Positions 10,701-62,275 of a stretch of 64,000 nucleotides of DNA are shown one piece after another (within the stretch, counting starts at the first letter, position 1; every line of letters begins with the position of its first letter). Made by a program: the position numbers and the translations under genes. This stretch comes from Antedon mediterranea (Eukaryota > Echinodermata > Crinoidea > Comatulida > Antedonidae), in NCBI RefSeq assembly GCF_964355755.1, contig NC_092680.1, positions 20,499,001 to 20,563,000 of the forward strand, written 5' to 3'. A model generated the notes under the pieces. It saw only the letters and a list, made by a program, of their open reading frames with translations, was not told where the DNA came from and searched no databases.

Positions 10701-13700
10701 GTCGGAGCTCTCCTCAGATTAGCAATTATACTATTAAATATAGACAAGTCAGACCTCCCCTTAAATTCGCAACCTTTATCAGTTTTTCATTTTATGATTA
10801 CCAAAAATCTAGAAACTAAAAAAACCTTAACTCACGTTTATTCTCACTCTGTTCTTGCGTGCCTCGTCGATCTTTGCACGTATCTTGTTACGTCTATATT
10901 CCTCGTAAGCGAACGGATCAGCTATTGCACGTGCCTTGTGATATAATCGAATATCCATAAAGTAACCGTGCATGTATGCACGTAAGAGGTTAGAACCAAT
11001 GAGATTTGACAAGCCTACAACAAAGAAACAAGTTATACATCTTTACATATGATGCCAACTGCTATATAAATACATTGCTTCATTAAAAGCTGTAATAGAG
11101 GGTAAAGCCAAAGAGTATGGGTATAAAATCAAAACAAAACATTGAGGGCACTTATCTTGCTAAATTCCCTGCATATTATAAGTTTAATTTATCAAAAAGA
11201 AATTTTGTTGTCAAAATTTACCCCACTTTATATGTGAGACTGTATTTTAGGAGTGAGGGAAACTATATCTCCCTCTTAAAATGACGCCATCTTACCTAAA
11301 CTGTCAAGATCATTGCGGGTCACAAACTTGTAATCATCATAAACTGTGTTCATTGTGGTTTCTTCAAGTTCTTCCGTTAGATTATCGAGGAAGGAACACC
11401 ACCGAGGGGCTGGGCCAAGAGACTAAAGTAAACAAGAACAAACAAAACATGATTTTGAATGCTAAAAAAAAAAAAACGCAAATAAAAATTGACAGCACTT
11501 CTATGAAAAAAAATCAAAATGAGAGTTTCCAGTTTTTTATGGAGTTTGGTTTTGAAAATTACTATTTATATAATAATCAGAAATAATTGTTCTTACTGGT
11601 ACAAAGTACGTAAGCATGGTTGGGGCCTCATTGGCCATCAAAACTAATCCAGAGTTGGGGACCAAACACATGTCATTAATGTCATTCTCTGTTTCTATAG
11701 ATGTGAATGGTTTACCCTGCAACAAACAAAATAATATACGGTTATTTATAAGTAGTAGTTTATTGTAGAAAGTGTTCTCAATATGGTATTGAAGCATCAA
11801 TGCAACATGTCAAAGAGCAGAAGTGTGGTTTTAGAATAGAATTTTCAATAATAATATTATTCATTCTTAAGCTCTATCTACACTATCAAACCTTATGTGA
11901 CAAAAAAATGTGATATTCTTATATGGACATGATGTCATATCACTACCATATTTGGGCACATCACACATTTTTTGTTTGATAGTGTAGACAGAGGTTTACA
12001 TATACACAGTGGTTGTACATTCAATGTCCGAGTGGTCATTAGGTTTGTTTTCCTTCTGATTTTGGTAAGGTACGATAATTTTTAAAATTCAAATTTTCAG
12101 ATTGTAATTGTCTGTCTGGTTTTTAATTAATACATTGCTAAACTAGAGGGTACTCCGAGAGTACCCACCTCCGCCTACTATAAAATTCCCTTACATAAAA
12201 TGTCCCCAAAAAATATATATATATATATATATATATTTTATTAGTTCTAAGTGTAAATAAGCTAACTGCACACTAAAAAGTTGTGGATGAGAGTTTGGTG
12301 TAATGGTTATGTATCCAGCCTCTCACAGTTCAAGTCCCGCTGAGTTTTTTTTTATTATTATTAATTTATTTCTTTTTTTTGTGGACCTTTTTCTTTGACA
12401 CCGACCCTTCAAAGTTTAACCACAATTATATGGTGAGTCATTGATCATTGTAGCTAAGTTTGGTGAGAATCGGAAAAAAATGTGGTCTCTAGGCAGTAAA
12501 ATAGTTTTTTGTTAGTTGTGACCTTGACCTATGACCTTTTCCCCTCAAATTCGAACGCGTCCGAGCTTTTGGGGCATAGATCATTGTGGCAAATTTGACA
12601 AAGACAATTACCGTGTTACGATTCCACATTTTGACGACCTTCTTATCAGCTGATAGCACCAACTCCATAGAGTCTTGGAAGGTTATGGATTTGATTGGTA
12701 GCCCATATTGATGGTCCTTGATGTACAGCGGTTTAGTTGCCCTTATGTCATACATTAATACTTGCCCAGTGCTTGTACCCACTGCCATGTGCAAGCCATC
12801 TTGGAACTTGAGACATGTAACTGAGGGTATCCGATGAACACTAGAACATTACAAATTTAACATTAAAATTAGTATTGGCCAGACATAGCATTGAACATTA
12901 AAGTAATCTGTAATCAAAACTTAAGCTCTGTCTACACTATCAAACTTTATGTGACAAAAAAATGTGATGTTCCCATATACATTATGGACATACTGATGTC
13001 ATATCATTACCACATTTGGGCATATCACTACCATATTTGGGCACATCACACTTTTTTTCAAACTATTTTGATAGTGTAGAAAGAGCTATAAAATAACATC
13101 TAAATTAAAACACCTACTCAGAATCAGATTCTGTAACACTGCTGAGGGCACAGTCTAGAATACCAACACGACCTCTGACCCTAGGATCCCAGCATTCAAC
13201 TCGTCCTTCAGCTGTACCAACTGCCAATAGATGGTGGGCTGGATTGACTTCACAAGCGTTTATCCCACTGACAAAAGGGTAAAACAAATGGATAGCAATA
13301 CAACTTTCAAATTTTTTTCAAGTGCTGGTAGGCCCTACTTTATTTGTTGTTGCTTATATGCAATTTATATTTTATTATGATATTTACACATCATGTTTAA
13401 AAAGCTGGAAAATAAAGTAGATTAACAATATGTTCAATGCTATAATTAAAACCTTTAAACCCATAAAGTAATTCTATGTCAAATTATTTTGAGTATCTAC
13501 TGTACTATGTAAAATGTCCAGAAATAAATATAGAACTTCAGTAGCTTATAAAAAATTCCAAAATGTGAACAAAATCCTGAGATATTGAGAAACATTTTGG
13601 GTTGATTTAATGTGGAATTACGGTCACCTTCCTTTCATTTTAACTCACCTTGCTTCTGTGACCCATGAACTTAAAAAACGACCTTGCTCTAGGTTAATTC

Positions 13701-16371
13701 TGAAAATTTCTGAGCTAATCACATAAATAAAAGAATATGTAAATAATTATAAAGCATAATACATGTGTATAAGATATTGCAATATGATTGCATATTTCAA
13801 CATATTCAATTAAATTTTTTATTCATCCCGAATGCAAACGACAGAAATAATAAATAGTAATAATCCATTTAAAATACAAAAATTTAATCACATTTAAATG
13901 TAACATCAAATCTTCATCTTTTCATTTATAATACTACATATATATATGTTATGATCACATTTCTACTGTAGTAAAATAAGCAACAATTGAATACACCAAT
14001 GAGAAAATCTTATTAAAAATGTTTAATGAATATTCATAAAATCTTACCTCGCTCCAACAAGAAACAGATCACAAGACGGTTTGTGGTACACCATATCTCG
14101 TCCAAACTTTGGTATTCGTAGTTGATGATATTTGCCATAACGTGCGTGAAATTCTACGCAACGATTGCACTGTAGAAAAACCATCTAGTTGAAGAGAAAT
14201 GTTAACAAATTGGATAGGATTAACAAAAATCACAATATTATAATAAAATAAATAAAATCAATCTGGACCTAAATAAACTTGAAACTATCTTTACCTTTGA
14301 GTAATCTTCAGACAAAGTAACAAACTTGATCACTATATATTAAAAATAATATTATTTTAATAAATGAAATACAATGATGTAGCAAACAAAATGATCTTTT
14401 CTAAAAATCATCAGTAAAAACAAAAAAGATAAGATATGATATGCCCATATATAGACATGATGATGTCATATCACCACCATATTTGGGCATATCACTACCA
14501 TATTTAAATAAATATTTTTATGTCAAACTAGTTTGATAGTGTAGACAGAGCTTTAGAACGTAAATTATACAAAAATAAATTTAACAAAACATTATTGAGA
14601 ATTAGACGCTACCTTCTGCGTCCATACAACGTTCAAATTTCATGGAGAGTTGTGACATGTCGTAGCACCGCACACGTGGCTTATACGTTCCAGTTACAAG
14701 TACGTACTGGCCATCCGGCGTCATCTGTATACCTGTACTTACGGTAGGCATAGTAAAGTCTTGTATTAACTCAATGCGTTTTCTAATATCTAAATATAAA
14801 ATTTAATGATTAATAAAACCATCTGAATGTTCTTGTTGTGTCAATTTAAAAGAATGTTAAAGAAATTCATGAATTATATCTTTAAAGCTTTTATCCCACT
14901 TTGATGCAATGCAATGGTATAGACACAATGCAAGTGAGTTGACCATTCACAAATGACCATGTCGTGATTGGTCAAATTACGTATGTCGTGCTTACGTCCT
15001 TGTGTTGCATCCAAGTGGGAAGCAAGCTTTAGGCCATATTTCATTCACATGAAAAAATTGATCGATGACCATTTCATTTGATTTCTTGTGGACAATTTTT
15101 AGTGTGTGTGTGTATAGAGCAGCTTATACCATAACAAATACCACTCTTTAGATTTAGTTTTTAATTGTGACACAGCAGGGGTTTACATTTTATTTGTAAT
15201 ACTTCTGAATTTAGGAACTTGGTGCATTTACTCACCTCCATCAGATTTCAGGAGAGCCCTTTTCTTTCTATCTGAAAGCCACTAAAAAAAATGTTCAAAA
15301 ATTACATACAATTTATAGTCACAGAGTCATATTTAATAATTAAATAATATGTGTCACTTGCTTGCTTGTAACTTGGCAGTCCGAAATAATTATTTAACAT
15401 TTTATTTAGATTACGGTATACATACATTTATAGGCCTCCTAGGCCAGCCTAGGCCTACATGATTTAGGCCTAGTTCCAAACTCCTTAAAAAAAGCTTTGG
15501 GCCGAATCGTCCAGCATTCAGCTGTAGTAAGTAAAGTACTACTATCTAGCTAGCGTACTACCTACAGTAATTACTAGGCCTAGCTAGGCTAGGATAGGGG
15601 GAACAGACGATCGGGACCACGGACGATCGTCATACCAGTTGGGCCCGATCGTCCAGTGTTTTCAGAACCACGTTGGGCCCGATAGTCTTACCAGTTGGTC
15701 CCGATCGTCTTAGCATTGGGCCCGATAGTCTTTTGTGTTATATAAAATAATGTGCCATCATCATTTTTCATTCCTAGTGCTAGTGTCGTGCTTTTCTTGC
15801 GTAATCAAGATTTTAATTAAAAAGGTTAATTAGATTTTTTCTGATTCTATCATAATTTTCCCCTAATTAAGTCTTAAGACTACTGCTTTTAAGAATTTCT
15901 TACCAATACTTTCGATTTATGAATAAATGTGATTGATTTTGATTGTTGTTATTGTGTAGTTTGTATTCACTATTCGCATAGTTATCTTTTAAAATTTTCC
16001 AAGAATGTTTTGGGCCCGATCATCTTGAATGAAGTGGGCCTGATCGTCTGGGCCCGATCATCCGTGAAGTGGTCCAGATCGTCTGATAACCAAAATAGGT
16101 AGTGTAGTGGGCCTGGCCCTCTCTACTCTACTACTACTAGGCTAGGCCTAATACTGTACTAGTATCAGGGCCTGGCCTAGCCTAACTAGCTAGCTAGCTA
16201 GGCCTCCTAGCTAGAGTACTACTACTACTACTAGGCTAGACTAGGCAGGCCCAGTCGATTTCTTGTGTATTAGTATTTAATTAAAATATACAGGCTTTTA
16301 AATACCTCTGGTAAAGATTTACCAACACTAAGATTGTAAATTTTAACATCATTTGCATTTGAAACCTGCAT
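7731..16371 (-). CDS. NOL10: Nucleolar protein 10 (NOL10/Enp2), complete, 16 exons, 686 aa
   Basis: Nucleolar WD40 protein of small-subunit pre-rRNA processing (yeast Enp2 orthologue). Minus-strand exons: 16371-16306, 15281-15236, 14789-14613, 14332-14295, 14184-14048, 13714-13649, 13267-13118, 12840-12612, 11716-11597, 11422-11296, 11014-10836, 10584-10498, 9984-9793, 9040-8817, 8283-8181 and 7850-7731. All have GT-AG borders with matching phases; the sum is 2061 nt including TGA. The human protein is 688 aa. N-terminus is [18 protein letters not shown]40-type propeller region spans about residues 40-370 (for example [27 protein letters not shown]), followed by the family stretch [20 protein letters not shown] and [16 protein letters not shown]. 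The NUC153 motif [11 protein letters not shown]...[10 protein letters not shown] lies near 480-505. The tail is an acidic ([12 protein letters not shown]) then basic coiled-coil region. Family A MITEs sit in many introns. Confidence 0.97.
7899..8049. mobile_element. Family A MITE copy 6
   Basis: CTGTCTAACACTATCAAAC at the left and GTTGATAGTGTAGACAGAAC at the right, in the last NOL10 intron (48 bases from the exon at 7850). Confidence 0.8.
8538..8720. mobile_element. Family A MITE copy 7 (three internal repeats)
   Basis: Full-length copy with both TIRs and three tandem CACTACCATATTTGGGTATA-type units, in a NOL10 intron. Confidence 0.85.
9105..9246 (+). mobile_element. SINE/LINE-type 3' tail ending in (ATT)n
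   Basis: Ends in GGCGCTGTATAAATCC followed by ATTATTATTATTAT, the classic tail of tRNA-derived SINEs and partner LINEs. The upstream stretch around TATGTTTCCATACGTGTTTG matches, in reverse orientation, 57570-57640. Inserted in a NOL10 intron. Confidence 0.6.
9626..9768. mobile_element. Family A MITE copy 8, 24 bases from a NOL10 exon
   Basis: Ends AGTTTGATAGTGTACACAGA. The adjacent NOL10 exon ends at 9793, so the element almost touches the 5' splice site. Confidence 0.8.
11869..11997. mobile_element. Family A MITE copy 9
   Basis: AAGCTCTATCTACACTATC at the left and GTTTGATAGTGTAGACAGAG at the right, in a NOL10 intron. Confidence 0.8.
12213..12237. repeat. (TA)n microsatellite
   Basis: About 12 TA dinucleotides in a NOL10 intron, directly 5' of a SINE-like element. 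Confidence 0.85.
12243..12600 (+). mobile_element. tRNA-derived SINE-like element next to a NOL10 splice site
   Basis: A tRNA-like head at about 12285-12345 has an A-box-like GGTGTAATGGTTATG and a B-box-like GTTCAAGTCCC, followed by T-rich DNA. The body holds TGACCTTGACCTATGACC (three AGGTCA-type half-sites on the minus strand). It runs to within about 10-20 bases of the 5' splice site of the NOL10 exon ending at 12612. Boundaries are approximate. Confidence 0.5.
12923..13087. mobile_element. Family A MITE copy 10, 30 bases from a NOL10 exon
   Basis: Full-length with two TIRs and two internal units, in the intron between the NOL10 exons at 12840 and 13118. Confidence 0.85.
14434..14554. mobile_element. 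Family A MITE copy 11 (left-truncated)
   Basis: Lacks the left TIR; internal units and the right end GTTTGATAGTGTAGACAGAG are present. 58 bases from a NOL10 exon. Confidence 0.75.
14885..15033. mobile_element. Family B inverted-repeat MITE (NOL10 intron 2)
   Basis: AAGCTTTTATCCCACTT at the left and AAGTGGGAAGCAAGCTTT at the right, with a GTGATTGGTCAAAT core motif. Confidence 0.7.
15410..15600. repeat. TAGGCCT-rich simple-repeat stretch in NOL10 intron 1
   Basis: Dense TAGGCCTA, CCTAGGCC and CTAGCTAG words. The same words recur at 16100-16250, 16680-17000 and 42300-42400. Confidence 0.6.
15604..16085. mobile_element. Non-autonomous DNA-transposon-like element with GGGCCCGATCGTC arrays
   Basis: Left end CAGACGATCGGGACCA is inverted at the right end (TGGTCCAGATCGTCTG). 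Subterminal clusters of a 13-base word related to GGGCCCGATCGTC occur near 15640, 15676, 15697, 15717, 16013, 16037, 16051 and 16072. An AT-rich core of about 270 bases separates the clusters. No coding capacity and no clear target-site duplication seen. A related word also lies outside, near 15499. Confidence 0.55.
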
Positions 16372-17083: not shown

Positions 17084-20000
17084 ATGTTACGGGTCCTAAC
17101 GAAGGCTAGCAAAGCAGGTAAAATTGTTTTAAAATCTTTTTTCATAATAAAAAATAAACACACACTCACAACATGTAACATTGAGTCTTGTATATAAAAT
17201 ATTAACCTGTGTGAGATTGCATTAGTTTTTTGTTGTTGAGTTAAAGTGTTTGATTTATTTATTGCGTTTGAGGAATATTCTGGCAACAATAGAAAAAATC
17301 CCAGGGATTGGAAACATTCTCAGATCGTAGATTTCTTATTTTTCTATGGTGGACTGAGTGAAAGGTACTCTCATATTAATAATAATCTTTTTTGAGATGA
17401 ACGTAGAGGATTCTCTGTTTCCTGTTAAGTCAAAGGGCCATGGTCTGTAAGTCAAGTGCATCCTGTTCAAGATACTGATGGCTAATTAGGGTCATGCATA
17501 AATTCATTATTTCAGCTACAACACTCTAATACTATGTCTACACTATCAAACTAGTTTAACAAAAAAAAACTGTGATGTGCCCAAATATGGTAGTGATATA
17601 CTCAAATATGGGAGTGATTTGACATTATCATGTCCATATATGGGCACATCACATGTTTTTCACATAAAGTTTGATAGTGTAGACAGAGTATTAGTGTACA
17701 TTATCTTCCAGTTCAGACCTACAGTGTTATGATGAATTCTGTATGTTTGAACAAAAGATTAGTGGAAGCCTCTTACAACAATACCTTTTAGTTCATTTCT
17801 TTTATATTTATGCAAATTGTCAAGGATAACCATAAGCTATTAATTCACTGTCTTAAAGTTTGGAATCTTGTTTTAAAATATACTGTATATATATAATGAA
17901 CACAAGAACTAGATAAAGATAAAAAAGGTATAATGAACACAAGACTTACATACTGTAAACAAAGTCTTATAGAAAGTGGAGTGGAGTTTTTTTAACACCC
18001 CGGTCAGTGACTTGTAATAAAAGCATACAGTATATCAAGTTTTTGCTAAGTGCTACTATGACACTAAGTCTGTAAATGTGAGCTTGTTTATTATCCAAAC
18101 CAAAAATTTTGATTTGCATGTCCACTATGTCGACTGTATGACATTCAAACATTCATCTGTGAACTGCTCAGATTCCAAATGGAAAAGTCCTTATAATCTT
18201 CAGCCAGCATAATTACACTGTTGCCTTAAAGTCTTATTTCTAGTTCATTTAATTTGATTGACTAATTTACTAAGCTATACTACTACTGTAGCACTAAACA
18301 CCATATAATTTTATGTTTGGACACCGTCTCAATGATGATTAAAGAACTACAGTACTCTATATGAACTACTTTATTAAGATATTATTTACTGTATATCATG
18401 GAGTACTCCATGCTGTATATTTATTAAACAAATTGATTCTGTGTTTATTATAAAATGTTTAATTATAGTAAATAAACTACATTTATATATATATATCCCA
18501 ATTAGACATTTTTCAAGAATAAATCAAAAATAAAAAGTTAGGCTTTTTTAAACAGAATTTTTAGTGTATTGTATTATTGTTCAGTAAGGAAGGACACCAA
18601 AAAATTGTCCTAATTATTTTATTGATTCCCTGGAAATCTATATTCCTGGGTAGGTCTAGGCCAAGCATATTTCTTACTGTACATTGTATTAAGCGCAAAT
18701 TGCAAGGCGTGGCCAGCCCCATGAGTCTCGTTTGCTGATTTTAATCAAACTAATGATTTGCACTAATGTCCTGATCATGTAAACCGTGACAAATAAAAAA
18801 GTAATCTTTTATAATCTAATGTTGGCATATTGTTACTGCAAGAGTGTGATTACACTTAAAATATACAATGACAATGCACATTTGTATTGATATGAATGTA
18901 ACCTTTAGAAAGTTTACACTTGTTTTCAATGATTTTAAAATAATTGTTAAATATTAATATATTTCTGTCAAAGGTCTAAAAGCAACATGTTTACCCAGCC
19001 TAAGGTCAAGTCATAGGTCAAGATGTCGTCTGCTACTTCAACAGACTGCTATCAGATGTCTGAGTACAAGGCAGCCTAACCAAAAAAAACCAAAACTGAT
19101 CATATTTGACAAGGATGGCACTCTCATCTGTTGTCACTCTATCTGGACACCATGGGTCAAAGACACAACAGACAGGTACTGTGTGTTTATATCTTATTTT
19201 TATCTTATCTTACCTTTAGTAAAAAACAGGGTTGACAAGCCAGACAGTAGGATTTGATTAGGAGAGGCTTTTGTCGAGACTCTGTGCTACACTTGAGTAT
19301 TTCAATGGAAATGAAGTTGCTCAATTATCCACCCAAGACCCATATCTCTATACATTCACTAGAACATCTGACTACAAGAGTTGTTGGGGTTTCAGTTGTA
19401 ATTATAATTGTTCATTTTCAGAGTTTGGAGAGGTTTCCAATGACATAAAATAAGCACCCCTCATTCAAAAAATCAACTGCGCTTTACAAATTCAAAAGCA
19501 TTTATAACCCACCTTACTGACACACAATTATAATTGTTTATTTATTGAGATAATGCTAATTATTATTTATTTTCATTAATATTTAATTTCTTAAAACAAA
19601 CACATGTGCATTTAATAATTTCTGTCAGACTGAAATTATTTAATATTCATCATCAAATATCAATATTACATTTTAATGCATAAATACAGATGTTTTGCTT
19701 TCATATATTTTTTTGATAGTTTATTTTAGCATTGTCTCCTATTTCAGATAAATTGAAAGAAACAAGATATTAAAGCATTTGATTTATTATTTTTTGAACT
19801 TGTTATTTTGGAGAATGAAAATTTCTTTTCTTGCACTTCCATTTTTCCTTCCTCAATTTAACTTTTATTTTAAATGTACAGTTCATATTATAATGTTTAT
19901 TTCTGGTGTTCTAGATTTATAAAGAAAACAGGCCTTAATCTGGAAGAAAAAATACATCATTTGCTAAGTTATGATCCAAAAGAGGACAGACTCCTGCCAG

Positions 20001-22786
20001 GTCTTTTGGCGGAAAGTACGTCACAGATCATCAAAAGACAACTCTGCCAGCTTCTCCAAGACGAAGGCATCAGCGTCGATCGTAGCTTAGAAATTGTTGA
20101 AGATTGCTACAAAGAGATGGGCACAATAGACGCAAATGTGTTAGTCTCGCACGGAGATGTAAACAAGTTAATGACCGAGATTAAGGAACAAGAGATCAAA
20201 ATAGCAGTGTGTACGGCAGATACAAGAGCAGGGACCATAAACACTCTCAAAGTGATAGATGTTGAACATCTGGTTGACATGGTTGTTTGTTCAGATGATC
20301 CTGGACTGCTCCCCAAGCCTAATGCAGATGCTGCCTTTGCTATTTGTGAGAAGTTAGGCGTGGAACCAGAGAGGACCGTTATGGTTGGAGACACAATGAC
20401 GGACATCAACTTTGGCATCAATGCTGGCCTCGGAAATATTGTTGGTAAGAAACAATTTTATTTTACTTTAGAAATATTTAAATTTATAAATAAGATTGAC
20501 ACACTCTATACATACAGTACAAATAGATTATGAAAGGAAAAATATCTTTTGAAAAATTATATTGATAACGTCCATTTGTATATCGCCATTCCAACGATCA
20601 TTGCTCATGGCGCTGTGGACTTAAAATTTACACTCTTGAACATGCTTCTTCTCTAATAAGGGCCACGTCACGTTCTCTCATCTGTCTACGACACATGAGT
20701 AATCCCCTACTTGTTTTAAAAGATGTACCGTACAGGTTCTTTAAAGTGCACACACAAGCATTTTTTGTACACTGGACTTAATAGTTTTTTAGTCCTTATC
20801 TGAGAATATTTCAAGTTCTACCTCAAGAACTATGAAGTGAGTGAGTGAGCCTTTAACCCTTGCCGATATTATAGCTATAGATTACTGTTCTTGTCTTAAC
20901 TGCTCATCCACTCACTAATTCAACTTAATAAATTTTTCCTTTCTGTTATAGGTGTTCTGAGTGGCGTTTCAACGAAGAAAGATTTGCACAAATCTGCAGA
21001 TTATGTCATTGATGATATTCAAGGTCTTACAAGCCTGTTCCTCAACCGCAGTTCTCAATTACCAAATAAGCCACAGCGTCATGGCGTTTTTAATACGCCG
21101 GCTCGTTCATTTTCAACAACTTCAAATCGTTCTCAGGAATACTCTCACGTGATTGTAGGAGCAGGGTCAGCAGGTTGTATTCTTGCGAACCGTCTAACCG
21201 AAGATCAATCTAACAATGTCATGTTGCTAGAGGCTGGGCCTAAAGACTACACTTGGAAGATCCACATGCCTGCTGCGTTAGTTTACCCTCTGTGTGATGA
21301 TAAGTATAACTGGTTTTACCACACTGTCCCTCAAACACATATGAATAGTAGAAAGATGTACCAACCCCGTGGTAGAGTCTGGGGTGGGTCATCGTCCCTG
21401 AATGCAATGTGTTATGTCAGAGGTCATGCTTTAGACTACGATGGCTGGGAAAAGGCCGGAGCTGAAGGTTGGTCCTACGCCGATTGTTTGCCGTACTTTA
21501 AGAAAGCTCAGTGCCATGAGTCAGGTGAAAGTGAATATCGAGGGGGAAGCGGACCGCTGAATGTGTCGCGCGGTAAAACAAATAATCCACTATTTAACGT
21601 TTTTCTAGAGGCAGGGCAACAAGCAGGGTACCCTCGTACTCAGGATTATAATGGATATCAATTCGAAGGATTTGATTTTATGGATTTTACAATTCACAAA
21701 GGCATTCGTTGGAGTACAGCAAATGCGTATTTGCGACCTGCTCTGAAAAGGTCAAACTTAAAGGTCACTAGTAAAACACTTACGACAAGGGTTCTATTTG
21801 ACGGAACTAAAGCTGTTGGTGTGGAGTACAAACAGGGTGGGGAGATTAAAACTGTACGAGCAGATAAAGTTATTTTAAGTTGTGGGTCGATAAACACGCC
21901 ACAGCTGTTGATGTTGTCTGGAGTGGGAAATGCAGATGAATTGAAGAAACATGACATTCCAGTTGTTAACCATCTACCAGGAGTTGGACAAAACCTGCAA
22001 GACCATTTAGAAGTTTATGTTCAGATGGCTTGCTCACAGCCAGTCTCCCTTTATAAAGCACAGTGGAAATTTCCTCACAACATGATTAAGATTGGCCTCC
22101 AGTGGTTTCTCCTCCAAACTGGTTTAGGAGCGACTTCTCATCTAGAAGCGGTTGCATTCATCCGAAGCCGTGCTGGTGTAGAATATCCAGATATCCAGTT
22201 CCACTTCCTGCCATCCTCTGTCAAAGATCATGGCCGGGTAAATCCTGAACAACATTCTTTTCAAGTACACGTTGGAGCGCAAAGACCAGAAAGTCGCGGG
22301 ACAATCGCGCTCCAATCCAAAAACCCTAAAGACCATCCGTTAATAGATCCAAATTATCTGTCGACAGAAAACGATCGATGGGAAATGAGAGAATGCATCA
22401 AACTTGCACGAGAAATTTTTGAACAAGATGCGTTTGCAGCATATCGTGGGAAAGAGATTTTACCCGGGGTAGATATGCAATCGGATGAACAACTAGATGC
22501 GTTTGTAAGAGAACATGGAGAGACTGCATACCATCCGTCTTGCTCTGCCAAAATGGGCAGTGAAAAAGATCCAATGGCTGTTGTTAATAAAAGAACTGAG
22601 GTATTTGGAATGGAGAACCTGTACATTGTGGATGCCTCAATAATGCCAAATGTGACCACTGGCAATCTGAATGCACCTGTTACCATGATGGCTGAGAAGG
22701 CAGCTGATATTTTTCGTGGTCGAGAAAAACTCGCTCCATCAGATGCCCCAGTTTACAAACCATCGAGTATAGAAACGCAACGTTGA
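17084..22786 (+). CDS. CHDH: HAD-family phosphatase fused to choline dehydrogenase, mitochondrial-type, 866 aa
   Basis: Exons: 17084-17117, 18974-19175, 19915-20444 and 20952-22786, all GT-AG with agreeing phases (2601 nt, stop 22784-22786). Residues 1-56 hold 13 Arg/Lys and no Asp/Glu, as in a mitochondrial presequence. Residues about 53-286 form a HAD phosphatase: IIFDKDGTL with nucleophile D57 and acid/base D59, conserved Lys213 in LLPKPN, and MVGDTMTD with D238 and D242. Residues from about 318 are a full GMC oxidoreductase: FAD motif GAGSAG at 325-330, signature 1 GRVWGGSSSLNAM, signature 2 GSINTPQLLMLSG, catalytic-region YHPSCSAKMG and TTGNLNAP, ending VYKPSSIETQR like human CHDH. CHDH oxidises choline to betaine aldehyde in the mitochondrion. 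The HAD substrate is unknown. Exon 4 encodes both the HAD C-terminus and CHDH without a stop or in-frame Met between them. Confidence 0.9.
17533..17692. mobile_element. Family A MITE copy 12
   Basis: Both ends recognisable (ATGTCTACACTATCAAAC and GTTTGATAGTGTAGACAGAG), in intron 1 of the HAD-CHDH gene. Confidence 0.8.
20690..20915 (-). mobile_element. tRNA-Leu/Ser-type SINE, near full length (HAD-CHDH intron 3)
   Basis: Body GGTTCTTTAAAGTGCACAC and TTAGTCCTTATCTGAGAA, then a degraded tRNA head ending CTTAACTGCTCATCCACTCA. Confidence 0.7.
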
Positions 22787-24869: not shown

Positions 24870-24942
24870 GACCAGTTAGCTCCGTCGACTGAGCGTCGTG
24901 TTAGTAACACGGATATCGTGGGTTCGATTCTCACGCAGGTCG
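24870..24942 (+). tRNA. tRNA-Thr(AGT)-like sequence, probably a SINE head
   Basis: 73 bases fold as a cloverleaf: 7-base acceptor stem with one A-A mismatch and one wobble; D stem GCTC/GAGC; anticodon stem TCGTG/CACGG with loop TTAGTAA (anticodon AGT); T arm GTGGG-TTCGATT-CTCAC. The D loop lacks the usual GG, and no T-run terminator follows. Unrelated-looking DNA continues to about 25140, so a tRNA-derived SINE is more likely than a functional gene. Confidence 0.5.
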
Positions 24943-37387: not shown

Positions 37388-37631
37388 TGTTGATTTTATT
37401 TAAATTGAATATTAATGATTCTGTAAAGTCAAAAAGTTCAGGATTAATAGCAAAGTTAGCTGAAAGGAATTAAATGGGCAGTTTGCTGTCTCTTAAATTC
37501 ACTATAATGTAGTTAATTCTACACACCATTAACTCAATTTGAATAAAACAAATTTTAGCATGCTAAAAATAAAGTTCACCATTTTCCCTGATTGCCTGTC
37601 TGTGTCGTCACTTGACGTGCGCGTACAAATT

Positions 37632-37742
37632 GTGCCAGTTTTACCACGTTGAAACACCGGTTCTCGTCACCGAAGTTAAGCAACGTTGGGCCTGGTTAGA
37701 GCTTGGATGGGAGACCATCTTGGTATATCGGGTGCTGGAAAC
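37632..37742 (+). pseudogene. 5S rRNA-like sequence (5S-derived SINE head or 5S pseudogene)
   Basis: Matches 5S rRNA over about 110 bases: TACCACGTTGAAACACCGGT, CACCGAAGTTAAGCAACG, GGTTAGAGCTTGGATGGGAG and CGGGTGCTGG. Against the usual metazoan form it lacks about 4 bases after GGTTCTCGTC and has an altered 5' end and TATATCGGG in place of AATACCGGG. No T-run follows; unrelated DNA continues to about 37910, suggesting a 5S-headed (SINE3-type) SINE. Confidence 0.75.
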
Positions 37743-37910
37743 GGAGCTGGAGTCCTGTTAGGCCCTGCATCTAGTATCTGCGTCAGACGTATTGGCCCAT
37801 GCCTTTCCTCTGGTCAAGGTGGACACTGGACGAGAGAAGCCCTTGATCAATGTTAGGACCGATAAAGGTGCTTTAAACAGTCCTGGCTTTGTTTGTATCA
37901 AACCTGTTAG
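37743..37910 (+). mobile_element. Possible body of the 5S-headed SINE
   Basis: GC-richer than its surroundings and directly continuous with the 5S-like head. Not matched elsewhere in the window, so its end is uncertain. Confidence 0.4.
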
Positions 37911-46461: not shown

Positions 46462-46506
46462 GTACCTGTAAATATTATACAAAAATTAATAAAATGAAAC
46501 AAAATA

Positions 46507-49500
46507 ATGGAAGTTCTTTTCTCTACAGAATATTATTATTATTATGATAATTACTCAACGATCAGTGATGAGTACTTAGCTGACATCATGGACACTGTGA
46601 GACAGAAAGTACATCCTGGACCTTTTGAATGGATGATAATCTCCTCATACATCATCGTGTTTCTGTTTTCAATCATTGGTAACAGTTTAGTTTGCATCAC
46701 CGTATTGCAAAATGAACAAATGCGTACAGTAACCAATATGTACATTGTGAACCTGAGTATTGCCGATATACTCGTTACTGTGTTATGCGTACCCTGGACA
46801 GTTACATATGAGGTTACTCATACGTGGTTCTTTGGAGCTACCGCTTGTTCGATTATATCGTATATTCAGGTGGGTGGTTGCTGATATTTAAAATAATAAT
46901 ATAATAGGAAGAAATTTGAAATCACATCTACAGATAGAAAACATAAAAACACATTTGGCACCCAAACCTTACCGATGAACATACCAATGCTATTGAAAGA
47001 GTACAAAAACGTGCGTGTCGAATCATCTTAGGTCACAATTATGTCTCATATGAAGCAGCTTGTTTGATTTTAAACCCCTTAAGGAACGAAGAACCGAATT
47101 ATGTATTAATTTTGGTACTTCTTTACTTAACTCTAAATTTAAAGAATGGTTACCGCCCCTAAGAGAAGAAACCCATAAGTACAATTTAAGAAATAGGAAA
47201 CACCATACGATTCCCAGTGCCAAAACAGAACGATACAAACGTAGCCCCATTCCCTACCTCGTAAATATTTTAAATAACCGGGACTAATGCAATTTACTAC
47301 AATTCATGTTCGCGGGGCAATATTATTTTATTCAATATCAGACAGTTCTAAATTTCAGTTTTAATAATTGTTTTTTAATATAATGTATATTTTAAATTGT
47401 AATTGTATGTTGTTGATTAATGGAGATGTTTATTTTAATGTTACTCTCAACGCCACAACATCGAGATCATTCGATCTCAACGCCACAACATCGAGATCAT
47501 TCACTCTCAACACCACAACATTGAGATCATTCACTCTCAACGCCACAACATTGAGATCATTCACTCTCAACGCCACAACATTGAGATCATTCACTCTCAA
47601 CGCCACAACATTGAGATCATTCACTCTCAACGCCACAACATTGAGATCACACACTCTCAACGCCACAACATCGAGATCATACACTCTCAACGCCACAACA
47701 TTGAGATCATTCACTCTCAACGCCACAACATTGAGATCATTCACTCTCAACGCCACAACATTGAGATCATTTACTCTCAACGCCACAACATTGAGATCAT
47801 TCACTCTCAACGCCACAACATCAAGATCATTCACTCTCAACGCCACAACATTGAGATCATTCACTCTCAACGCCACAACATCGAGATCATTCACTCTCAA
47901 CGCCACAACATTGAGATCATTCACTCTCAACGCCACAACATTGTAATCATTCACTCTCAACGCCACAACATTGAGATCATTCACTCTCAACACCACAACA
48001 TTGAGATCCTTCACTCTCAACGCCACAACATCGAGATCATTCACTCTCAACTCCACAACATCGAGATCATTCACTCTCAACGCCACAACATCGAGATCAT
48101 TCACTCTCAACGCCACAACATCGAGATCATTCACTCTCAACGCCACAACATTGAGATCATTTACTCTCAACGCCACAACATTGTGATCATTCACTCTCAA
48201 CGCCACAACATTGAGATCATTCACTCTCAACACCACAACATTGAGATCCTTCACTCTCAACGCCACAACATCGAGATCATTCACTCTCAACGCCACAACA
48301 TTGAGATCATTCACTCTCAACGCCACAACATTGAGATCATTCACTCTCAACGCCACAACATCGTGATCATTCACTCTCAACACCACAACATTGAGATCAT
48401 TCACTCTCAACGCCACAACATGCATGGAGATTCACCCTTAACTCTTACTCTAAATGTATTTTCAACCGCTCGGAAACATACATAATAATTAGGAGCTCAT
48501 GAATTAGCTAAATATCAACCCCTCTCAACATCATGACATAATGTTTGCGATCAAACTTCTTTATTATTAAATGTCACTATCTTTAATTATATTTACAGCT
48601 TGTTTGTGTTGGTGTGTCTATCTTTACGCTAACGTTCATTGCTCTAGACCGATATCTTGCTATCTGCTGCCCATTCAAGTACAAGATCAATCGGTCTAGG
48701 ACCGTTGTCCTTATAGCTATAGCCTGGATGTTGGCAATAATTATTGCCTTGCCCGTCTACTTTGTTCATGAAATTGAAGAAGATTCTTTAAAAAGATACC
48801 ACGAGAAGGTTTGGTTGACTACGTGTGGTGAGGTAATTATACAATTTACGATATCCAAAAAAAATGACAACTTTGCCTCAAAATTAAATGTGGGATACAG
48901 CTAAAGAGAAAAAAAAATAATGACTAGCACACCAGGTTTTTTATACGCCAGGCATCATCCATTTTTAAGTACATTGACTCTACTAAAGGGAACAAAAGAG
49001 ATATTGTTTTTACTTAAATTACGGGCGGGAACATGATCTATTATATAAAATTATAATAATTTTATTTATGGTTTCGGCAATATAGAAATTGCCATATGCC
49101 TAATGTATACTATATCATTGATATTTGGTACAGAAATGGAGTAACGAAACACTACGGAAGCTGTATCACATTGGACTAGTACTGGAATTATATATTGTTC
49201 CATTGTTTATCATAACATTAGCGTACACCAAGGTGTGTCGTACGCTGTGGTCAGGGATACCGACTGAGGAGAAAACATCTGGTAAAATGTAAGTAAGTGC
49301 AGTAAGGTTGTACAAATATCACGATCTAATCTCTACATTTCATCACAGAGTGTGTAATAAGTCTGAAATTCTCTATACGCCCCCTCACGGTCAGTATTTG
49401 TTCAGGGCCTGCCATATCACCTTCCATTGAGACTGAACGTGCATGTCAGCCAAACCGTAATAGATAATATATAGCATGCCTATCATAACGCCCCCGGCAT

Positions 49501-52259
49501 ACCCCACCCCACTAACCAAACCCTAATCTAATGGTAGGGCGTCTGACAAGAAGGATTTCGAATCTTGTCTGTGCGGCTTTTCCTGATTTTTTCCGTTTAA
49601 AGATGAATTCATTAATTTTTATTGTAGAATGTTTTCTATCCCTATAAATTTAAATAAGTTTAGATATATTTTGTTCATTGTTCCTAAAACGTTTGTGTTT
49701 TGTTTACTTTCTTTTACTTTAACTTATTTTCTTTTAGGCCTGACAAGAAAATACGTACTTCTTCTACCAGTGCGGCCCAAACACAGACAGAGAATCGAAA
49801 GAAAGTGGCCCGGATGTTGATAGTCGTTGTTGTCCTTTTCGCATTGTGTTATTTTATGACACATGTTATGAACCTTCTTAAGTAAGTATGGAGTTCTATT
49901 TCCGACGACCTACAGTAACATCTACGACGACCTACAGTAACACCTACGACGCCCCACAGTAACATCTACGATGACCTACAGTAACATCTACGACGACCTA
50001 CAGTAACACCTACGACCTACAGTAACATCTACGACGACCTACAGTAACATCTACGACGACCTACAGTAACACCTACGACGCCCCACAGTAACATCTACGA
50101 TGACCTACAGTAACATCTACGACGACCTACAGTAACACCTACGACCTACAGTAACATCTACGACGACCTACAGTAACATCTATGACGATCTACAGTACGG
50201 TAACATATACGACGACCTACAGTAACATCTACGAGGACATACAGTAACATCTACGACGACCTACAGTAACATAATACGACTATGCATTTATTGTGTTGCG
50301 ACTGGACCTAGAAGTCTAAGACTGTATCGAGGAATCGAATGAGGAAGCACATCTCGATGTCCCTGTGCGCGTGTGCACAATAAGTTAATTACTATTACCG
50401 AAATCGAAAGCTAATATTAAGGATTCTAAATCTCATCTTTAGTGATAAAAGTGTATCATTGGCAATAATTTAACGGTCTAAAAAAGAAATTCTCAAAGCT
50501 AATTAACACCATACAGTAGGTCCATAATGACACTCATTCACACGTGGAGTTTTGTTATATAATTCGATTTCACTCTAATGATAAACCAAACGTGATGTAA
50601 AATAGTATTGTGATGGTGCTAGTTACAATATCTGTTATGCGTGATTAATTAATGAATGACGTAATGCATAAACGGGGATAAATAGAGAACAGATTTGTAC
50701 TCATGGTACGAGAGAATTGTAGTATATTATTCCTTTTTATTTTGATATTAGACTCTTTGGCGTTTTTGATGACTTTAACCTGTTCGACGACAGTGACATC
50801 CAATTGATGCTATTACTGAACACAGTCACTCACTGGTTTATGTATTTTAACAGTGCCGTCAACCCGATTATCTACAATTTCTTAAGCGGTAAGCAGGATT
50901 ATTAATAATTGTACATCTCTAATTTAGAGTCAAATTATGTCAGTATCGGCTGATATAGGCCTATAGGGTATTGGAAAAGAGGTGATACTGCACCAACGAC
51001 TGCACAGACTATGGGGGCGCTTTACCCAATTTCTCGATCCGAAAGAAGTGCCCTTTCCCGTAGTTTGATACGCGCGCGCGTAAACCAAAAAATGAAATTA
51101 TTCAGATAACAGTTTACTTTTTTATTATGTAAACACATTCTAATATTTTGTTATTGTAAACACAACAGAGAAATGAAGCAACTCATGAAAGGCCGAAGTT
51201 CAAAAAGTTCATTTTTATGAAATATGATCAATGATTTTAAAAAGGAAGCAATTTATGATACAACTTTAATCGTATTGTCGATTGTTGATTTCCCTTTGAA
51301 ATCTATGTAATTAATCGTATACAAATGATTCGATCTGTACACGTGTATCGGTCCACTTATTTCATCTCCGGAATTAAATATTTCGTCTTGCATAACCGGA
51401 AGTAATTACCTGTAACTAATGGCGAATGTAATTTTCTTTTTTTTTGTCAAAACAATGTTGATGTATCGTATGATGTTAATTATATTTTGTTTAAGAAATC
51501 AAAACAAGTATCTTCCTAAAACAAATGATGAAAAAAGAAATGCACGTCAGAGTCAATTCATGTGTTATAATATTTTTGGTCAGATGTTTTGCTTACTCTG
51601 ACTTTTGCTAAGTTTATTTCGAGAATACTGGCGGAAAGTCTCGGACGGGACCACCGTAGCATAAAGTACAATTACGTCATAGTAGACCAAAACATCTGAC
51701 CAATTAGCTCCCTGACGCAAAGCTCTTAAGAAGTAGTTAAAGATGTATTGTCCCCCAATAACATGAAAAATGAAGATTAATTAAATCAGACTTTGAATAG
51801 GTTATTTTGTAGTTTTAATAAAGTTAATCACTTCTGAAGAAAAAAAACGAAAACAAATCATGTTTTTACTTATGAAATAACATAATAAATGTTTAAATTC
51901 AACCAAAAATCCAATCTAAAACTTTTTTCTCGATCCAATTTTTGGTCGAAGTAAATAATATTATATGACAATAAAATGGCATATTCAACAAAACAAATTA
52001 AAAAACAATTTTTTTTAGGGAGACAATACATCTTTAAGTATAAAATTTAGCCTATTTTATTAAATATTTTACAGCCAAGTTCAGGGAAGAGTTCAAAGCA
52101 CTATGTTTATGCTGTTGTAGACGAAGTCAAAAGAAGCGACAGGACATGTTATCAGATCCAGGCAGAACTACGGAATACATGGGTATGTCCTGCAAGAAAT
52201 CTAGCGCACTTGAAAGTCGACGAACGCACAATTCGTATACGGCCGTACAGACAGTTTAA
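46507..52259 (+). CDS. Orexin/allatotropin-receptor-like class A GPCR, complete, 6 exons, 405 aa
   Basis: Seven-helix neuropeptide receptor of the plasma membrane. Exons: 46507-46869, 48599-48832, 49134-49288, 49738-49881, 50752-50888 and 52075-52259 (TAA 52257-52259); GT-AG, phases agree, 1218 nt. An in-frame TGA at 46495 supports this ATG. The N-terminus has a Tyr run and an N-glycosylation site NYST. Class A marks: GNSLVCITVL (TM1), NLSIADILVTVLCVPW (TM2), Cys114 and Cys197 (likely disulphide), DRY at 138-140, NPIIY at 336-340, and a CLCCC cluster at 355-359 for lipid anchoring. Orexin-receptor-like blocks: LRKLYHIG...LWSGIP, RKKVARMLIVVVVLFALCY, and HWFMYFNSAVNPIIYNFLS then KFREEFKALC. 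Odd: where orexin receptors have CYLP in TM6 this has CYFM, so the TM6 proline is Met291. Ligand is inferred only. Confidence 0.93.
46950..47286 (+). pseudogene. CR1/L2-type LINE reverse-transcriptase C-terminal remnant (receptor intron 1)
   Basis: Translates to a typical LINE ORF2 end: WHPNLTDEHTNAIERVQKR, ACRIILG, then PLKERRTELC, KFKEWLPP and YNLRNRK, stopping at 47287. A one-base frame change near 47078 separates the two halves, so it is dead. Same strand as the receptor gene. Confidence 0.8.
47441..48421. repeat. 30-base minisatellite, about 32 units, in receptor intron 1
   Basis: Unit CTCAACGCCACAACATTGAG plus ATCATTCACT. Near-perfect; the main variation is TTGAG/TCGAG (a CpG position). 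Each unit has the inverted pair TCTCAA...TTGAGA. Because 30 is a multiple of three and the unit lacks stops, it is open in several frames on both strands; these are not genes. Confidence 0.97.
49505..49580 (+). mobile_element. Degenerate tRNA-like SINE remnant in receptor intron 3
   Basis: A-box-like CTAATGGTAGGGCGTCTGAC and B-box-like GGATTTCGAATCTTG, spaced as in a tRNA; the stems are not convincing. Confidence 0.35.
49901..50271. repeat. 22-base minisatellite with higher-order structure, receptor intron 4
   Basis: Unit TCTACGACGACCTACAGTAA plus CA, about 17 copies. A six-unit block (five of 22 and one of 19 bases) is repeated twice. Starts 20 bases after the splice donor at 49882. Confidence 0.95.
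51738..52036. mobile_element. Family C MITE copy 6, in the last receptor intron
   Basis: Complete copy: TTAAAGATGTATTGTCCCCC at the left, GGGAGACAATACATCTTTAA at the right. Ends 38 bases before the last receptor exon. Confidence 0.8.
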
Positions 52260-61664: not shown

Positions 61665-62275
61665 TACTAATGTGTTGGACCACATGTTGTCAAAGTCAAT
61701 TTTGGTGGAGTGCTATTTTGTTTGAGCAAACTTTGTTAGACATTGTTGGAGTGAGCTTTTTCAGAGCACACTTTAAATGCACTTTGTTGGAGATTAGTTT
61801 GTTAGAGTGTAGCCTAGATTGTTGGCGTGTACCGTACTTTGATGAAGTGTACTTTGATGGAGTGTACTTTGTTAGAGTGTACTTTGTTGGAGTGTACTTT
61901 GTTGGAGTGTACTTTGTTGGAGTGTACTTTGATGGAGTGTACTTTGTTAGAGTCTAGCCTAGATTGTTGGAGTGTACCGTACTTTGATGGAGTGTACCGT
62001 ACTTTGATGGAGTGTACTTTGTTGGAGTGTACTTTGTTGGAGTGTACTTTGTTGGAGTGTACTTTGTTGGAGTGTACTTTGTTAGTGTGTACTTTGTTGG
62101 AGCACACTTTGTTAGAGTGTACTTTGTTGGAGTGTAATCTTTCAGGGAGAGTACAAACATTGTTAGAGTGTACATTGTTGGAGTGTACTTTGTTGTTAGA
62201 TTACACTTTATTAGAGTGTAGCCTACATTGTTGAAGTGTACTTTGTTATATCACAATTTGTTAGAACACACTTGT
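61665..62275. repeat. 15-base minisatellite
   Basis: Unit GTACTTTGTTGGAGT with GATGGAGT and GTTAGAGT variants, about 30 copies at the core (61850-62140) and degenerate at the edges. Pentapeptide-repeat ORFs on both strands are by-products of the period. Confidence 0.93.

Follow-up and report, generated by a model that had tools for sequence, protein, structure and literature searches.

An in-frame HAD phosphatase-choline dehydrogenase gene in the crinoid Antedon mediterranea: a predicted tandem mitochondrial precursor

Why should a crinoid carry a HAD phosphatase and a choline dehydrogenase (CHDH) in a single reading frame, and does the product stay in one piece? The gene that raises these questions is located on the plus strand of a 64,000-nucleotide stretch of the Antedon mediterranea genome (contig NC_092680.1, positions 20,499,001 to 20,563,000), referred to here as the window; gene coordinates below are positions in it. 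The reading that we prefer, with a probability of roughly one half, is that the gene encodes a tandem mitochondrial precursor that would be cut into two matrix enzymes, of which the HAD phosphatase would serve choline metabolism.

On joining, the four predicted exons (Table 1) yield 2601 nucleotides, a number divisible by 3, with 866 encoded residues and a single terminal stop codon ending at 22786. The three introns have GT/AG borders and phases 1, 2 and 1. The domain order is N-terminal presequence, HAD phosphatase, linker and CHDH. Residues 1-41 are basic, with nine arginines or lysines and no aspartate or glutamate, a composition that supports the predicted mitochondrial targeting. The initial annotation had described this presequence, a HAD phosphatase with all core motifs and a complete CHDH on four exons in agreeing phases, with no stop codon and no ATG ahead of the flavin adenine dinucleotide (FAD) motif in the last exon, and our analysis bore out each of these points.

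It is in exon 4 that the two enzymes meet. The HAD residues encoded there (VGVLSG...ADYVIDDI) continue the alignment with bacterial HADs beyond this junction, and in a structural model of a bacterial relative, the HAD of locus L055 (pLDDT 96.9), the corresponding segment contributes the final strands of the core (205-209 and 225-227). Judging by this model, the HAD fold would be incomplete without exon 4 because its last core strands are encoded there; exon 3 terminates mid-strand. A model of exon 4 itself, obtained with AlphaFold from a 3-row alignment, had a mean pLDDT of 35.4, too low for conclusions on disorder of the linker or contacts between the domains. Exon 4 runs stop-free from the end of the HAD into the CHDH, and the first in-frame methionine codon, at 21221, is located downstream of the FAD motif. 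The gap of about 110 nucleotides between the two enzymes is too short for a 3' end, a promoter and a start codon. Since 20% of shuffles leave a frame as long as the linker open, the open frame by itself is little proof. The common exon, the common frame and the lack of a start codon before the CHDH nevertheless make two separate genes a poor fit; with no CHDH start before the FAD motif and no stop after the HAD, that model was rejected, and we are close to certain that the fusion is real.

Table 1. Exons, domains and predicted cleavage sites of the HAD-CHDH gene, with the evidence for each (positions in the window; aa, amino acid residues; arrow, predicted cut).
Feature	Position	Strand	Evidence
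Exon 1: start codon and first 11 presequence residues, MLRVLTKASKA, basic	17084..17117	+	In phase with exon 2, donor 3.9
Exon 2: remaining presequence and HAD motif I, FDKDGTL	18974..19175	+	Frame join and Pfam
RCL↓ST, predicted MPP/ICP55 site 1, aa 39-43, directly before HAD	19054..19068	+	Motif match
Exon 3: most of HAD domain (motif II, K213, D238/D242)	19915..20444	+	Frame join and Pfam
Exon 4: HAD C-terminal part, linker, entire CHDH, stop	20952..22786	+	Frame join, Pfam, NCBIfam
C-terminal segment of the HAD (aa 256-278), GVLSGVSTKKDLHKSADYVIDDI, with its first codon starting in exon 3	20952..21019	+	Bacterial HAD alignment, relative's model
Basic acid-free linker, aa 278-317, read as second, internal presequence	21017..21136	+	Composition
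RSF↓ST, predicted internal MPP/ICP55 site 2, aa 307-311	21104..21118	+	Motif match
Choline dehydrogenase (GMC oxidoreductase), aa 317-866	21134..22783	+	TIGR01810, BetA identity

The C-terminal enzyme is a complete choline dehydrogenase, and oxidation of choline is predicted from its sequence. Its 550 residues match the NCBIfam betA model TIGR01810 over the full length with 748.8 bits as protein and 753.2 bits in the genome (cut-off 732.1), and are 61% identical to the alphaproteobacterial BetA of locus L076. The Pfam domains GMC_oxred_N (320-608, 196.7 bits) and GMC_oxred_C (701-836) are above their cut-offs, the FAD motif GAGSAG is located at 325, and the motifs HPSC and GNLNAP, which we take to be the catalytic His/Asn region of GMC enzymes, are identical in the window CHDH and two bacterial BetA proteins. 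The best match by sequence in PDB is the choline dehydrogenase 9lq0 (E = 8e-177). What sets the window CHDH apart from BetA and its relatives is that it follows a complete HAD in the same frame, occupies a single exon and has its presequence-like stretch in the interior of the protein; human CHDH is not known to have a HAD part.

Each part of the gene was found once in the 354-Mb assembly. A search with the HAD of exon 3 matched only itself, and the only gene of betA grade was this fusion (753 bits), the next GMC genes being distant (96 bits on C7 and 51 bits on C6). If Antedon mediterranea has a choline dehydrogenase, it is this fusion, barring a copy in an assembly gap or an unsearched stretch. 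The whole CHDH is encoded in one 1.8-kb exon while the HAD-coding part is split by introns, as would be expected had a CHDH retrocopy fused with a HAD gene at its final exon. As for the distant GMC genes themselves, the one on C7 (29926224-29928032; L004) is a single open frame of 1073 residues, 864 of them covered by L004, with a GMC oxidoreductase and, after it, a long C-terminal extension. The one on C6 (23771368-23797227) is a multi-exon gene, apparently in tandem copies, with stop codons in some of the matches.

The N-terminal enzyme has all core residues of a HAD phosphatase: FDKDG at 56 (D57/D59), T179, K213, GDT at 237 (D238) and D242, which serve catalysis in HAD enzymes. Pfam places Hydrolase (PF00702) at 52-250 with 78.1 bits (cut-off 26.4), and HAD_2 (PF13419, 54-251) and Hydrolase_like (212-279) are likewise above cut-off. 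The motifs DxD, T/S, K and DxxxD together with the HAD models passed assign it to class IA. Of 40 NCBIfam matches 25 were listed, and among these the broad subfamily model TIGR01549 (HAD-IA v1, 33.8 bits, cut-off 23.3) was the sole HAD model passed. A PhnX-like family membership was rejected by the Pfam and NCBIfam results, and an identity as phosphoglycolate phosphatase by scores of 64.6 against a cut-off of 225 and 41.6 against 180, with the other phosphoglycolate models listed also below cut-off.

The linker between the two enzymes resembles a second presequence. Its 40 residues include five arginines or lysines and no aspartate or glutamate, and the sequence RSF↓ST sits nine residues ahead of the CHDH domain. 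In the available part of PMC8847149, RX(F/Y/I/L)↓(S/A)(S/T) is given as the motif for a cut by MPP that is followed by ICP55. The pattern R.[FYL][AS][ST] occurs in the 866-residue protein at residues 39 and 307 only, once before each enzyme, and it appeared by chance within residues 285-317 in 0.47% of whole-protein shuffles. The two BetA proteins that were aligned to the CHDH start about where the linker ends. The gene thus encodes two complete enzymes with an MPP-type site before each, as in a tandem precursor. Two observations weigh against a second presequence: shuffles of the linker alone yielded the motif in 4.4% of cases, so that linker composition accounts for part of the signal, and the linker falls short of a clear amphipathic helix, with single 18-residue windows at the 95th-97th percentile of this protein and ordinary neighbours.

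There are precedents for such internal cutting. In yeast Arg5,6 a single precursor contains two matrix enzymes and has N-terminal and internal MPP-type sites (PMC8847149 and PMC12585908, both in part), and internal cutting by MPP is described for it in the former excerpt, which also reports predicted internal MPP sites in other composite precursors from fungi and rice. The enzymes of Arg5,6 are others than those of the window, where the gene is from an animal and the cutting is predicted from motifs. Human TOP3A also undergoes internal cutting by MPP, but a C-terminal piece is removed from it, as opposed to the splitting of two enzymes (PMC12585908, in part). In engineered mitochondrial polyproteins in yeast, a 10-residue MPP site between the proteins suffices (PMC10450427, in part). 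The second presequence-like stretch with its MPP/ICP55 motif, taken with these three precedents, leads us to favour a tandem precursor over a permanent fusion, and cutting between the HAD and the CHDH, as predicted from the motif, seems on balance to occur.

The proposed function of the HAD comes from bacterial gene neighbourhoods. We scanned GTDB contigs with a HAD alignment and examined 85 loci, of which 80 were the best of at least 507 GTDB relatives, and not a random sample, and five were from plasmids (5 of 26 plasmid records with a HAD relative). In three of these loci, L076, L066 and L055, the window CHDH matched a gene neighbouring the HAD. The betA gene of L076 and L066 is divergent from the HAD gene and about 165 bp away from it, while that of L055 is further off. 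The order in L055 is betA-betB-betI, then divergently choX-choW-choV-HAD, then betaine-homocysteine methyltransferase; its BetB, BetI, ChoX, ChoW, ChoV and betaine-homocysteine methyltransferase all pass curated cut-offs. A fourth choline locus, L046, contains betBI and choXWV beside the HAD. The HAD gene is directly 3' of choV and on the same strand in L055, L046, L104 and L105, the last two of which, from genomes G041 and G075, repeat the choX-choW-choV-HAD order.

To this we added a sample of 115 genomes from the same class as that of L055; the HAD was present at E ≤ 1e-30 in 13 of them. In 4 of 12 non-query genomes (G041, G075, G091 and G005), the HAD was located 0.5-4.1 kb from the sole betA gene above cut-off. 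The number of genomes with the HAD within 5 kb of betA that was expected by chance was 0.037 (P = 4e-8), or 0.13 when every betA-like gene was counted (P = 5e-6), both with genomes treated as independent, which related genomes are not, so that the P values are optimistic. Chance linkage of the HAD to betA in bacteria was rejected on these numbers.

In eight genomes chosen for HAD linkage, the linked HAD was in every case the best match of the window HAD (E from 3e-12 to 8e-24). Seven of these best matches share a contig with betA and the eighth, in G002, is instead located by betBI-choXWV, whereas none of 11 lower-ranked HAD matches shares a contig with betA. Conversely, a search of the Antedon mediterranea assembly with the L055 HAD gave a single weak match, to exon 3 of the fusion gene (E = 6e-5, 26% identity). 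The two are thus reciprocal best matches, with the forward direction taken from eight genomes selected for linkage and the reverse, weak one from L055 alone. Bacterial gene neighbourhoods newly support a link between this HAD and choline metabolism; a term search of two papers on the choline genes of alphaproteobacteria (PMC4744692 and PMC12442346) found none of the words haloacid, phosphatase and phosphocholine in the main text. The bacterial loci resemble the window gene in placing a relative of its HAD beside betA and choline uptake genes, but they differ from it in that the genes are separate, with the HAD often divergent from betA, and in that their HADs are only 26-34% identical to the window HAD and belong to another branch.

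Other neighbours of the HAD relatives were also noted. They are located beside MttB-type methyltransferases in 11 of the 85 loci, nine of which fall in one clade, mostly of Rhodobacterales, and beside dimethylglycine/sarcosine-type dehydrogenases in five, a label given by eye with no curated cut-off passed. Loci with a HAD relative near an MttB-type methyltransferase, of the trimethylamine/betaine family, are L009, L016, L033, L039, L043, L047, L054, L075, L076, L085, L089 and L115. In L006 and L007 the HAD relative ends an ABC transporter operon that may serve a phosphorylated solute, and a DeoR regulator is encoded close by. Viral contigs contained one HAD and five GMC relatives, and none of the six stretches held both.

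Of the other explanations, the one that survives best is that the domains stay joined as a bifunctional matrix enzyme, in which the HAD would free choline from a phosphate ester for oxidation by the attached CHDH and the benefit would be proximity or channelling. The in-frame join agrees with this, as do the choline-locus neighbours of the HAD in bacteria, and the mannitol-1-phosphate dehydrogenase/phosphatase MtlD of Acinetobacter (PDB 7ocn-7ocu) sets a precedent for a HAD phosphatase and a dehydrogenase in one chain; MtlD functions in osmolyte synthesis. Its structures matched the HAD model of the bacterial relative with TM-scores by query of 0.66-0.72, at best at rank 10. MtlD is however bacterial, and its dehydrogenase is nicotinamide-dependent. 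A permanent fusion would leave unexplained why the linker, basic and free of acidic residues, has a canonical MPP/ICP55 motif just before the CHDH. No bacterial HAD-CHDH fusion was seen either: the HAD open frames in the 13 class-mate matches are at most 273 residues long, and in all 3 of the 85 loci with a CHDH match the HAD is on the opposite strand to it. We therefore consider a permanent fusion somewhat unlikely.

The next alternative accepts the fusion and places the HAD outside choline metabolism, as a general phosphatase, phosphoglycolate-like or for metabolite repair, that shares a presequence and a promoter with the CHDH. It draws on a series of observations that weigh against our preferred reading, first among them the phylogeny. 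In a tree of 31 of the 86 rows of a larger tree and 12 new rows, the window HAD was sister to HADs from Chloroflexota (97/82), and a clade uniting it with the choline-locus HADs was rejected (p = 0.00013), which also rules out its direct descent from them. For one 36-row set, seven rows were dropped, L015 because of a stop in the row and L029, L038, L050, L051, L067 and L088 for set size. The window HAD was also outside the choline-locus branch in the larger, 86-row tree, and that branch mixes choline-linked and unlinked HADs. The evidence from neighbourhoods thus belongs to a cousin branch, and the link to choline amounts to an association that recurs in the HAD family and does not prove a shared function.

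The remaining observations on that side are of several kinds. Eight of the 12 newly sampled genomes had no betA linkage; some of their HADs are located in short contigs, and one of the eight, G037, has no betA above cut-off. Other HAD relatives adjoin other ABC transporters or lipopolysaccharide genes. No substrate-specific (equivalog) NCBIfam model was passed by the window HAD among the matches listed, and the highest HAD scores were to general models, TIGR02253 (68.7 bits) and phosphoglycolate phosphatase (64.6 bits), both far under cut-off. The nearest folds to the relative's HAD model were equally general, alnumycin P phosphatase and phosphoglycolate phosphatase-like proteins, with no pointer to choline. 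A general phosphatase would not lead one to expect the betA linkage in 4 of the 12 newly sampled genomes, where chance predicts 0.04, the linked HAD as best match in all eight linked genomes, or the recurrence of the association in relatives beside MttB-type or dimethylglycine-type genes. Weighing both sides, we regard a choline-related role of the HAD as rather probable and a role outside choline metabolism as unlikely.

An artefact of the gene model, with the HAD and the CHDH as separate genes or as isoforms that differ in their first or last exon, is very improbable, since the HAD fold needs exon 4, where no stop precedes the CHDH, and since the CHDH has neither a start codon in exon 4 before the FAD motif nor a usable ATG exon in intron 3. 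Its support comes from the splice sites, which were scored with general matrices not fitted to Antedon mediterranea. The scores are weak for the acceptors at 18974 (-2.4) and 19915 (0.1) and for the donor at 19175 (0.6). Exon 1, 34 nucleotides long and 1.86 kb upstream of exon 2, is the least secure exon: between 15.5 and 18.96 kb there are two candidate first exons with a donor of at least 2 and the right phase, and the rival encodes five residues with a donor of 4.7 against 3.9. The acceptor at 20952 scores highest (7.6) among the AGs of 20952-21164. The next, at 21052 (3.8), might conceivably serve a CHDH-only isoform. An alternative first exon with its own methionine spliced to 20952, which the initial annotation had named as evidence against the fusion, was sought in intron 3, the range of the scan; the single ATG exon joinable in phase has a donor of -8.0 and is unusable.

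For the tandem precursor we propose the following course of events. One nuclear gene would encode a precursor with presequence 1, the HAD phosphatase, presequence 2 (the linker) and the CHDH. After import, MPP and then ICP55 would cut at RCL↓ST and RSF↓ST and release into the matrix two enzymes of 268 and 557 residues in a fixed 1:1 ratio, as for Arg5,6. The HAD, going by its bacterial neighbourhoods, would dephosphorylate a choline ester or a related intermediate, with phosphocholine as the first candidate, and the CHDH would oxidise the freed choline on the way to betaine. In this view the internal presequence would be what remains of the targeting signal of a once-separate CHDH gene that became joined to the last HAD exon, and such a relic of an independent CHDH also fits its location in one intron-free exon.

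The substrate is the more tentative part of this scheme. Two HAD enzymes that hydrolyse phosphocholine are described, PchP, which is periplasmic and made during growth on choline or betaine (PMC3170909, in part), and PHOSPHO1 (PMC9360546, in part). Membership in their families was rejected for the window HAD, whose only Pfam matches at E ≤ 0.001 were Hydrolase, HAD_2 and Hydrolase_like, none of them pointing to those families, a result obtained without direct comparison of the sequences. The presence of phosphocholine in the mitochondrial matrix is moreover not established, which counts against the scheme. PchP and PHOSPHO1 belong to other HAD families. Phosphocholine is thus a possible, though doubtful, main substrate. 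The initial annotation had proposed a two-step mitochondrial enzyme that perhaps frees choline from a phosphorylated precursor before its oxidation towards betaine, which is an osmolyte in marine invertebrates. The in-frame fusion and the link of the HAD to choline are in keeping with the two steps, while the MPP/ICP55 motif in the linker weakens the idea of one lasting enzyme; likewise, the neighbourhoods tie the HAD to choline but leave phosphocholine as no more than plausible.

The rest of the window contains several features besides this gene. On the minus strand, the open reading frames at 12489-12848 and 14602-14802 look by eye like WD40 exons, presumably of a NOL10-like protein, head-to-head with the HAD-CHDH gene, so that a shared promoter region is possible. 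Rfam matches on the plus strand comprise a tRNA at 24870-24942 (36.2 bits, gathering 29) and a 5S rRNA at 37631-37743 (54.6 bits, gathering 38). An open reading frame at 46498-46884, also plus, resembles by eye the start of a peptide G-protein-coupled receptor. A 30-bp minisatellite at 47443-48421 (32.6 copies, 94% matches) is overlain by open frames of 348 and 333 residues on the two strands, which are probably repeat artefacts, and further tandem arrays have units of 22 bp (49903-50280) and 15 bp (61834-62195).

Among open-licence papers, judged by title and start of abstract, none was found on a HAD joined to CHDH in one protein; the architecture may already exist in eukaryotic protein databases as an unremarked prediction. 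In its fullest form, our proposal is that an animal precursor cut by MPP and ICP55 would supply equal amounts of CHDH and of a new choline-phosphate phosphatase, the counterpart of an undescribed choXWV-HAD step, by which phosphocholine or a related ester would feed betaine synthesis in mitochondria; that all of this holds together is unlikely. If the precursor is cut as predicted, two-enzyme processing by MPP, shown for yeast Arg5,6 (PMC8847149, in part), would extend to an animal gene. The repeated occurrence of this HAD family next to betA and choXWV, together with its joining to CHDH here, points to a missing phosphatase in the metabolism of choline to betaine.

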